64,000 nt of DNA from Flavobacteriales bacterium (GTDB taxonomy: Bacteria; Bacteroidota; Bacteroidia; Flavobacteriales_F; PHOS-HE28), in the NCBI GenBank assembly GCA_013360395.1, contig JABWBQ010000004.1, forward strand, positions 1 through 64,000, in the 5' to 3' direction. Below the pieces are notes generated by a model. The model saw nothing but the letters and a program-made list of their open reading frames with translations. It was not told the DNA's origin and did no database searches. Numbering within the stretch: the first letter of the stretch is position 1; the number at the start of each line of letters is the position of its first letter. Position numbers and translations under genes: made by a program. Positions 38,723 through 40,934 of the stretch are shown here, in pieces.

Positions 38723-39448
38723 ATGCAAGGCGGCCCGGTCGATATCCTCTGCATCACGGCGCATCCCGACGATGTGGAGATCTCGTGCGCAGGCACCCTG
38801 ATGCGCCACATCGCGCAGGGGCGCACCGTGGGCCTGGTGGAATTGACGGCCGGTGAGCTGGGCACCCGCGGCAGTGCCGCCCTGCGGCGTCAGGAGGCCG
38901 AGGCCGCACGGCGTGTCATCGGGGCCGGGTTCCGCTACGACCTCGGGCTACCCGACGGCTTCTTCCGGGCCGAGCGCGATGCGCTGTTGCAGGTCGTCAC
39001 CGCCCTGCGGCTGCACCGCCCCCGCGTGCTGATCACCAATGCCGTGCGCGACCGCCATCCGGACCACGGACGGGCCGCGGCGCTGGTGGGCGAGGCGGCC
39101 TTCCTGAGCGGGCTGCGCCGGATCGGGACCGACTTCGAGGGCAGGGCCCAGGAACCCTGGCGACCGACGACCGTGCTGTATTGCGTGCAGGACAACTGGA
39201 TCGAACCGGACCTCGTGGTGGACATCACCGCCCACTGGGAGCGCAAGATGGAAGCGCTTCGCTGCTTCCGTTCACAGTTCCACGACCCGGCGAGCACCGA
39301 GCCCGAGAGCCCCATCGCCACCCCCGAGTTCATGCCCTTCCTCGAGGGCCGGCACCGGGCCATGGGGCGCATCATCCAGGCGGCTTTCGGCGAAGGGTTC
39401 ACGGTGCAACGTCCGCCGGGCGTGGGCGACGTGACGCAACTGGTGTGA
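38723..39448 (+). CDS. bshB1: Bacillithiol biosynthesis deacetylase BshB1-like
   Basis: A 241-residue LmbE/PIG-L deacetylase. Zinc ligands are in CITAHPDDVEISCAGTLM and DRHPDHGRAAALV; DLGLPDGFF and VQDNWIEPDLVVDIT are typical of the BshB1 group. BshB1 removes acetyl from GlcNAc-malate during bacillithiol synthesis, a redox thiol used instead of glutathione in this phylum. The glutathione peroxidase-family gene just upstream is likely thioredoxin- or bacillithiol-linked. The start was set by the promoter box and family length; the upstream part of the open frame is unsupported. Confidence 0.87.
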   Translation: MQGGPVDILCITAHPDDVEISCAGTLMRHIAQGRTVGLVELTAGELGTRGSAALRRQEAEAARRVIGAGFRYDLGLPDGFFRAERDALLQVVTALRLHRPRVLITNAVRDRHPDHGRAAALVGEAAFLSGLRRIGTDFEGRAQEPWRPTTVLYCVQDNWIEPDLVVDITAHWERKMEALRCFRSQFHDPASTEPESPIATPEFMPFLEGRHRAMGRIIQAAFGEGFTVQRPPGVGDVTQLV

Positions 39449-39449
39449 A

Positions 39450-39670
39450 GGGTGCCTCGAAGAACCTCGGGCGAATGGCGCGCGCCGCGCTCATTCGTCC
39501 GGACGAGGCGCTCCGAAGAGCGGATACTGGATCGAAGTTTCCGACTGAGGAGCTACAGCTCATGGACGAATGAGGGCAAGGGATGACCGCTGTGCTCCTT
39601 GCTCATGAACGCCGCGCGCCGTCGCTGAAGCTATGGCTCAAGCGCCGGAACGAGGTTCTTCGAGGTACCC
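39450..39670. repeat. 221-bp intergenic element bounded by 20-bp inverted repeats
   Basis: GGGTGCCTCGAAGAACCTCG (39450-39469) and CGAGGTTCTTCGAGGTACCC (39651-39670) are reverse complements at 19 of 20 bases. Inside are nested palindromes (GAGCTACAGCTC; GGCGCGCGCC) and a second inverted pair GCTCATTCGTCC/GGACGAATGAGG. It holds no credible gene. It resembles a miniature inverted-repeat element or large REP unit between bshB1 and the flippase. Confidence 0.65.
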
Positions 39671-39680
39671 GTGAGGACTG

Positions 39681-40934
39681 TCAAAGCCGCAGCAGCCGCC
39701 GCAACCGGTCGAGGTCGGCCCGGTCGGGCCAGTGGTCCTGCACCCGCGCCCCGCTGATCGTCATGAACCGCCAGCCCTGGTAGAGCGCGTTCACCAGGTA
39801 GGCCAGCGAGGCGGTGAGGGCCGCACCCATCGCGCCCCAGGCCACCACCAGCAGCAGGCCCGCGCCGATGGTCACCACCAGCCCCAGCGCCGAGCCGATG
39901 GTGTTGTGCACGTTGCGGCCCACCCCGCTGAAGTAGTGGCTGTACGCCTGCGACGCGGCCATGGCCACGATGCCGGGGGCCAGGCAGGCCAGCAACGGGC
40001 GCACCCCGCGCACCTCGGGGCCGAACAGCAAGGCGTACACCGCGTCGGGCAGCAGCAAGGCAAGCAGCAGCGCCCCGGAGGCGGCCAGCACCGAGGTCTT
40101 GAAGGTGGTGAGGGTGAGGGCCCGCTGGCGCCCGGCCAGGGGTTCGTTGCTCACCGTGCTGTACAGCACCATGCCCAGGCTGCGCGGCACCAGCCAGGCC
40201 CCTTCGGCCAGCTGCGTGGCCACCGAGTACACGCCCAGTGCGGCCAGGCCCAGGTAGTGCTCGATCAGGTAGTAGGCGAACCGGTAGTTCAGCAGCTGCA
40301 TGGCGTTGGCGCCCTGCACGTGCAGGCCCTGCAGCACCATCCGCCGCAGCAGCCCGTCCACCGCCGGCACCGCCGGGACCGACGCACGCCGCGCCAGGGC
40401 CCACGCGCTCAGGGCCAGCGTGGTGGCGAAGGCCGCGTAGCAGGCTTGCACGTACGCGCCCACCGTGGCGCCGCCCGGCCTGCGCACCAGCACCACGAAA
40501 ACGGACAGCATCACCAGGCCGTGCAGCGCCGTGATGCGGTTGTAGGCCGCGATGCGCTGCCGCCCCAGCAGCACGTTCAGGTGGATGGTGTAGAGCGATT
40601 GCAGCAGGGCGAGGGCCGCCACATGGCCGGAGAGCCCACGGGGCACCAGCGGCACCAGCAGCAGCACGGCGAAGGCGGCCAGCGCGGTGAACAGGGCCCA
40701 GGCATAGGCCGGCCGCAGCAGGGCCGCCAGCGGCGCCCGCGGCACCAGGTGCACCAGCGCACCGCCGCCCACCACGTTGTTGAGCAGTTGCACCAGCGTG
40801 ATGGCCAGCACCACCAAGCTGATGGTGCCCAGTCCCGAGGCGCCCAGCAGGTGGCCGGCCACCATCACCACCAGCAGGTTCGCCAGCGTGGTCCACGCAC
40901 GGGCGATCACCGAACCGATGGCGGGGCGGATCAT
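39681..40934 (-). CDS. Polysaccharide flippase (Wzx-like)
   Basis: A 417-residue membrane protein with twelve or so helices and a small basic cytoplasmic end. The N-terminal half (GTISLVVLAITLVQLLNNVV, LHGLVMLSVFVVLV) and C-terminal half (RSLGMVLYSTVSNEPLAGR) match oligosaccharide-flippase/MATE-like proteins of O-antigen clusters. It would flip undecaprenyl-linked glycan across the inner membrane. It overlaps the formyltransferase gene by 4 bp, forming a three-gene unit with it and the glycosyltransferase. Confidence 0.82.
   Translation of the reverse strand: MIRPAIGSVIARAWTTLANLLVVMVAGHLLGASGLGTISLVVLAITLVQLLNNVVGGGALVHLVPRAPLAALLRPAYAWALFTALAAFAVLLLVPLVPRGLSGHVAALALLQSLYTIHLNVLLGRQRIAAYNRITALHGLVMLSVFVVLVRRPGGATVGAYVQACYAAFATTLALSAWALARRASVPAVPAVDGLLRRMVLQGLHVQGANAMQLLNYRFAYYLIEHYLGLAALGVYSVATQLAEGAWLVPRSLGMVLYSTVSNEPLAGRQRALTLTTFKTSVLAASGALLLALLLPDAVYALLFGPEVRGVRPLLACLAPGIVAMAASQAYSHYFSGVGRNVHNTIGSALGLVVTIGAGLLLVVAWGAMGAALTASLAYLVNALYQGWRFMTISGARVQDHWPDRADLDRLRRLLRL

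Follow-up and report, generated by a model that had tools for sequence, protein, structure and literature searches.

A MITE with IS5-family ends beside bshB1 carries a strand-specific folded core that recurs in MITEs with unrelated ends

What is the short stretch that separates bshB1 from a flippase-like gene in the 64-kb window (the whole stretch of DNA analysed here, 64,000 nucleotides), and does it contain anything beyond the ends of a mobile element? The gene bshB1 (PIG-L family, plus strand) ends at 39448, immediately 5' of the stretch; the flippase-like ORF runs towards it on the minus strand to an end at 39681, so that the two genes converge on the stretch. An earlier note, made from the letters alone, had described a gene-free element of 221 bp in this place, with 20-bp terminal inverted repeats and symmetrical inner palindromes, and had likened it to a MITE or a compound REP sequence. 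Its anatomical description held. The element lies at 39450–39670 and interrupts no gene, and its outer arms, at 39450–39469 (GGGTGCCTCGAAGAACCTCG, plus strand) and 39651–39670 (GGGTACCTCGAAGAACCTCG in the minus-strand reading), match inversely at 19 of 20 bases (95%). Of the inner palindromes, one pair on the plus strand, with its 5' arm at 39487–39500 and its 3' arm at 39564–39577, matches at 93% and makes up the inner stem of a conserved folded core at 39486–39578 (plus strand; 80.9 bits with the model R2, described below). The element is bordered by GTGA at 39445–39448, which contains the bshB1 stop codon, and by GTGA at 39671–39674, and we presume these to be the two copies of a 4-bp target duplication; an unmatched A (39449) stands between the left copy and the element, leaving the duplication offset by one base. 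There is no transposase gene, the ORFs here being those of the neighbours and mechanical overlaps only. When the 221 nt are folded as RNA, they reach −120.4 kcal/mol (z = −7.65), and 0 of 200 dinucleotide shuffles were equally stable. We orient the element by this stable fold, whose sense strand is the plus strand in the window copy.

The earlier note had proposed a BLASTN-type search for further copies with flanking duplications. Multiple dispersed copies were indeed found, both in the element's own genome and in its genus. In the own genome, an assembly of 3.68 Mb in 139 contigs, five copies are full or nearly so (on C38, C2, C97, C7 and C113) and two are partial (on C30 and C34); the other full or nearly full copies are 87–89% identical to the window copy. 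In a set of 58 genomes comprising relatives and the own genome, DNA matches were found in 18, all of one genus. The ends occur at up to one mismatch in 24 of 45 genus genomes, where a reversed control gave one match overall, and at up to three mismatches in 35 of the 45, a threshold at which the reversed control also gave one or two matches in many genomes. The exact end sequence is found mostly in metagenome-assembled records titled 'Flavobacteriales bacterium', and a scan of viral contigs for it gave none. Exact end repeats were also seen in one locus each from Rhodanobacteraceae UBA703 (L119) and Saprospiraceae mag.7 (L123), which could be misbinned contigs or chance.

To characterise the insertions, we collected 66 loci, recovered end pairs in 58, and removed three weak pairs (L219, L223 and L224), which left 55 copies; setting aside three that were orthologous or duplicate (L015, L183 and L211) left 52 independent ones. 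Exact 4-bp direct repeats flank 25 of these 52, and the remaining 27 have no exact repeat. As a null we set left flanks against the right flanks of other copies, which gave 1.0 on average and never more than 3. The preferred target is a palindrome of the approximate form GNC-TTAT-GNC. In all four relatives examined (G026, G008, G033 and G025), the orthologous bshB1/flippase junction is present and the MITE is not. The dispersed copies, the 4-bp duplications, the empty orthologous sites and the IS5-family terminal repeats described below support the MITE half of the earlier reading, and the compound REP half is no longer needed. REP sequences are characterised in the abstract of PMC3733652 as palindromic units of 20–40 bp, and what we found is a single unit with fixed ends, mostly 175–310 bp long. 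Two cases may record further movement around the MITE. In G008, the MITE occurs between identical flanks in two copies of an integrase-like gene, on C46 and C35 (L210 501–691 and L211 501–691), as if the mobile element of that gene had moved after the MITE inserted. On C2 of the own genome, a copy with an exact 4-bp duplication (L002 1501–1722, with 1719–1809) seems to have inserted into another core-bearing element, the latter having GGCTATCTCAA-type ends.

We next consider what could move such an element. Of 44 genus genomes searched for PF01609 transposases, 20 gave matches; the window's own genome was not among them. Ten PF01609 loci that we fetched contain insertion sequences (ISs) of 1229–1246 bp with ends such as GGGTAGTTCGAAGAACC, and a 17-bp end, GGGTRSYTCGAAGAACC, is common to these ISs and the MITE, where it forms the first 17 bp of the left terminal repeat. 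Exact 4-bp duplications flank six of the ten ISs (TCAA, CACA, CGGT, ATTG, CTAA and TTCA), and of the four others, one is at the edge of a contig. The encoded transposase is a member of the IS5 family (NF033581, 273.9 bits against a cut-off of 140). This 1.23–1.25 kb IS5-family element of the relatives is therefore the likely autonomous partner of the MITE, judging from shared ends and duplications. The partner was traced solely via PF01609: by end pattern alone, a list of the 45 genomes read by eye held no pair at IS distance with up to one mismatch, and the 104 loose long-distance pairs were mostly single MITE ends paired by chance, ten being kept as transposase loci with good ends. Compared by eye, the likeness between MITE and IS stops about 18 bp in from the end, and the core model has no match in the partner IS loci. 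The MITE thus seems not to be an internal-deletion derivative of the IS, since it has the ends of the IS around an interior of another kind. The anatomy speaks strongly for mobility by way of an IS5-type transposase, with transposition itself as the inferred step.

If the interior is not a remnant of the IS, is it a structure in its own right? To assess its conservation, we used A1, an alignment of 27 of the 55 copies (short forms, chosen for structure). RNAalifold predicts 50 pairs for A1, almost wholly in nested stems, with two-sided compensatory changes at 26 of the 50. In this alignment 93.5% of cells pair. The covariation score is 0.302, compared with 0.150 in shuffles, of which none in 500 scored as high; slid structures did not exceed 0.080. 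The fold is strongly strand-specific: the consensus reaches −49.97 kcal/mol on the sense and −16.25 kcal/mol on the antisense strand, and 26 of the 27 single copies fold lower on the sense strand. After correction by dinucleotide shuffling, the sense strand was the more extreme in 14 of the 15 copies tested out of the 55, with no G+T excess. The internal-loop bases of the core, AGGCG and AAC, are near-invariant. Rfam 15 gave no family over its gathering cut-off in the window at 39000–40000 (best E 4.4) and no match in seven core-bearing loci. We considered a likeness of the internal loop to sheared-GA or hammerhead-type cores and dropped it, there being no third strand and no Rfam match. Some copies (L173–L177 in G031; L218 and L222 in G016) have an extra palindrome of about 20 bp, of the CCTGCCTTCCGGCAGGCAGG type, at a fixed internal site that corresponds to columns 23–42 of A1. 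Altogether, comparison of the copies gives good support to the view that the core of this MITE is a conserved, strand-specific structure.

The core is not confined to this MITE family. A model built from the family, R1, found full-length relatives in G284, which belongs to another family of the host's class, and in G039 and G267 it found core-only matches bounded by quite different ends (GAGCCTGTTYAA). R2, a model of the core from the alignment A2, in which matches of the G039/G267 type are included, detected the core in G661, G480 and G407 and, between other ends, in the own genome too. With strict filters, the multi-genome searches gave at least 12 of 295 genomes for R1 and at least 4 of 395 for R2, both being lower bounds. 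R2 has 21 matches in the own genome (E up to 0.001), and within the 64 kb of the window it matches nothing, at E up to 1, but the core at 39486–39578. Among 37 genomes of the G267 relatives set, seven have matches: 61 in G267, 20 in G152, 16 in G183, 10 in G212, 5 in G037, 4 in G039 and 1 in G069.

A second MITE family in the window's genus provides an independent view of the core. It has ends of the type GAAGCCATCTCAAAATA and an apparent TA duplication, and DNA matches to it occur in 25 of 45 genomes, some being the ends of its partner IS only; that partner is likely another IS5-family element, on the basis of a 21-bp end match. R2, which was not trained on this family, matches 24 of the 25 loci tested (out of 30; the core tests used selected loci rather than all). 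For the fold, 26 of the 30 loci were used, two at contig edges (L316 and L324) and two partial ones (L320 and L321) being left out and L306 kept despite a left end unlike the others. Of these 26 copies, 24 fold better on the sense strand; shuffle correction was applied to ten of them, and nine showed this preference.

Around this one core we counted about ten kinds of end in 51 loci, of which nine have no terminal repeat and several others a pair at chance level only. In an alignment of 43 distinct core rows, fitted to the model and thereby favouring its structure, two-sided changes occur at 19 of 20 pairs; 0 of 500 shuffles reach this, and in slid structures at most 43% of cells pair. The unpaired loop bases, A-GGCG and AA-C, stand at 0.98–1.00, and the long stem has a mean of 0.66. 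The core module thus recurs between unrelated MITE ends, both across several families of the host's class and in genomes outside that class. The inner palindromes of the earlier note are real, and they turn out to be part of something it had not foreseen, a conserved strand-specific fold common to MITEs with other ends.

Some core-bearing elements have unusual architectures or locations. The elements of G661 (L260, L262, L264 and L257) are 265 bp long with two opposite cores, the main core having at least seven copies; strand preference is lost in them because the core is present twice in opposite orientation. One element of G480 (L254 1501–1853) contains a direct tandem of three cores, spaced at about 121 bp. 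Four core-bearing elements, L233 1501–1688 and L243 1501–1685 (G010), L242 1501–1689 (G016) and L247 1501–1685 (G023), lie inside a mutase-like frame, which we take to be that of an IcmF-like methylmalonyl-CoA mutase; cation-efflux genes adjoin, and the frames on both sides of the element are still open. We considered a self-splicing or bypassed insert at these four loci and rejected it, since there are in-frame stops or frame shifts, and we read them as hits in a decaying fragment. Other genes lie upstream, and therefore apparently just a C-terminal mutase-like fragment is present.

We also asked where the insertions lie relative to genes, using gene calls made with a home-made codon score and no annotation. 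For this MITE family, 32 insertions were classed, omitting L015, L183, L210, L211, L233, L242, L243 and L247 and the copies that had no called gene on both sides. Fifteen of the 32 lie between convergent genes (background 16 of 134; Fisher p = 3e-5) and one between divergent genes (background 26 of 134; Fisher p = 0.03). At tandem sites the orientation of the MITE relative to its neighbours is unbiased (9 versus 7), and there is therefore no sign of preferential transcription of the sense strand. The core copies of G267 have no gene-end preference: of the 38 that could be classed out of 42, four are convergent and seven divergent, versus 37 and 36 of 229 in the background. G267 thus lends no support to the idea that the core in general prefers gene ends, and the convergent placement is therefore a matter of this MITE family's target choice or selection and not of the core. 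When strands were compared with the local GC skew, the sense strand was the G-rich one in 12 of 42 cases in G267 (42 of its 61 copies, in 40 regions), and in 7 of 18 in G152, 9 of 15 in G183 and 5 of 20 in G000. The last three, in which a motif check held for 49 of 53 cores, pool to 21 of 53 (p = 0.17, not significant), so that a tendency of the sense strand toward the C-rich strand is a tentative hint.

How might these observations be explained? We consider it rather probable that the MITE is mobilised in trans by an IS5-family transposase and that its separate core acts, most likely, as an RNA serving the element. A DDE transposase of the IS5 family (NF033581 type) would act on the GGGTRCCTCGAAGAACC ends and duplicate 4 bp of target. 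The interior would be a separate module, one strand of which folds into a long hairpin broken by near-invariant internal loops. Read-through transcripts would fold in this way, and the loop may present a putative protein-binding platform serving the element itself, e.g. by shielding the transcript or by securing access to transposase produced elsewhere. From these comparisons we infer both that the core works as RNA and that it serves the element, not the host. The window insertion lies at the stop codon of bshB1, with its neighbouring genes converging on it; it is probably harmless, and it is probably immobile at present because no PF01609 transposase was detected in the own genome. That same result counts against trans mobilisation, as do the 27 copies that have no exact 4-bp repeat and the one-base offset in the window; the RNA role, for its part, has to contend with the loss of strand preference in the two-core elements of G661. 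More tentatively, and at somewhat less than even chances, a single RNA module outside Rfam could be the real unit of inheritance, wearing the ends of many IS5-like transposases; such a module would occur across several families of this class and in further classes of the phylum, with its near-invariant loop as a putative binding site that aids mobilisation in trans.

The most serious rivals to an RNA role are a role as single-stranded DNA and the upkeep of palindromes by template switching. A strand-specific fold could act as single-stranded DNA, for example when exposed in replication, with a transposase or host factor recognising the hairpin. A large one-strand folding advantage is equally expected of single DNA strands, and the orientation leans against the GC skew. 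However, the ends and short target duplications indicate ordinary double-strand DDE transposition, and pooling the three later genomes gives no significant lean. The lagging-strand template is, as a usual rule, the G-rich one, and if so the lean is in the wrong direction for folding there; on balance we think this role unlikely. Bacterial palindromes can also be corrected by template switching, which places matching changes on both arms, and the structure consists almost entirely of nested stems, such that a plain, functionless MITE could keep its pairing by correction of quasi-palindromes in the absence of selection. Such correction, however, would favour neither strand, and it leaves unexplained how unpaired loop bases stay near invariance across MITEs with unrelated ends; of the possibilities discussed here we give it the least credence. 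It also seems quite improbable, if a shade less so, that the MITE is kept as an mRNA element useful to neighbouring genes, either a terminator or a 3'-end stabiliser. The window copy adjoins the bshB1 stop, and insertions of the family favour convergent gene ends and avoid divergent ones. Nonetheless, this placement rests on home-made gene calls and has no counterpart in G267, tandem sites show no orientation bias, and the window copy is missing from all four relatives. A conserved filler between changing ends would, if this view is right, mean that small bacterial transposons carry a widespread function at the level of RNA or strand. The loop bases indicate targets for mutation, genomes with 16–61 copies are natural material for such work, and the core model detects these elements where searches based on ends fail.

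How does this MITE compare with known systems? Within its own genus, it resembles the NF033581 (IS5_4) ISs (L272, L289, L297, L290, L291, L282 and others) in its 17-bp ends and 4-bp duplication; those ISs encode a transposase of about 350 aa and have no core, and the MITE is the reverse. Porphyromonas, like the host, belongs to the phylum Bacteroidota. The BrickBuilt and MITE464/PgRS elements of Porphyromonas gingivalis are, in the sections of PMC4596501 that describe them, MITEs with IS5-family ends, and the window MITE is similarly short, has no transposase and has ends of this family. According to the same sections, BrickBuilt and MITE464 have GAGACC-type ends and the interior of BrickBuilt consists of 23-nt tandem repeats (PMC4596501), whereas the filler of the window MITE is a conserved covarying fold, a distinction drawn from descriptions. 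ERIC, Correia/NEMIS and RUP elements are likewise about 100–200 bp long with terminal repeats and a target duplication, their transcripts fold into long stem-loops, and for RUP the use of an IS transposase has been proposed, as outlined in parts of PMC2229807. Most of these and similar small repeats have TA at their ends (PMC2229807), whereas the window family has 4-bp duplications with no fixed TA and, as far as descriptions allow comparison, shares its core with MITEs that have other ends. MITECca01 of Cardinium is also a MITE of about 240 bp with the ends of a resident IS; it differs in having IS982 ends and in retaining, within its left end, a short piece of the parent IS, and the portions of PMC9769881 on this element mention no RNA fold. 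Stable stem-loops in MITE transcripts are themselves familiar from reviews (in the relevant passages of PMC10969869 and PMC2229807). Our literature search found no account of one folded core common to MITEs with different ends, and a search for four core and end strings gave no relevant paper. By its mobility, then, this is an ordinary MITE, and a folded core belonging to many MITE families is apparently undescribed. The usual view of a MITE is of two ends plus filler; here it is the filler that is conserved and the ends that vary.
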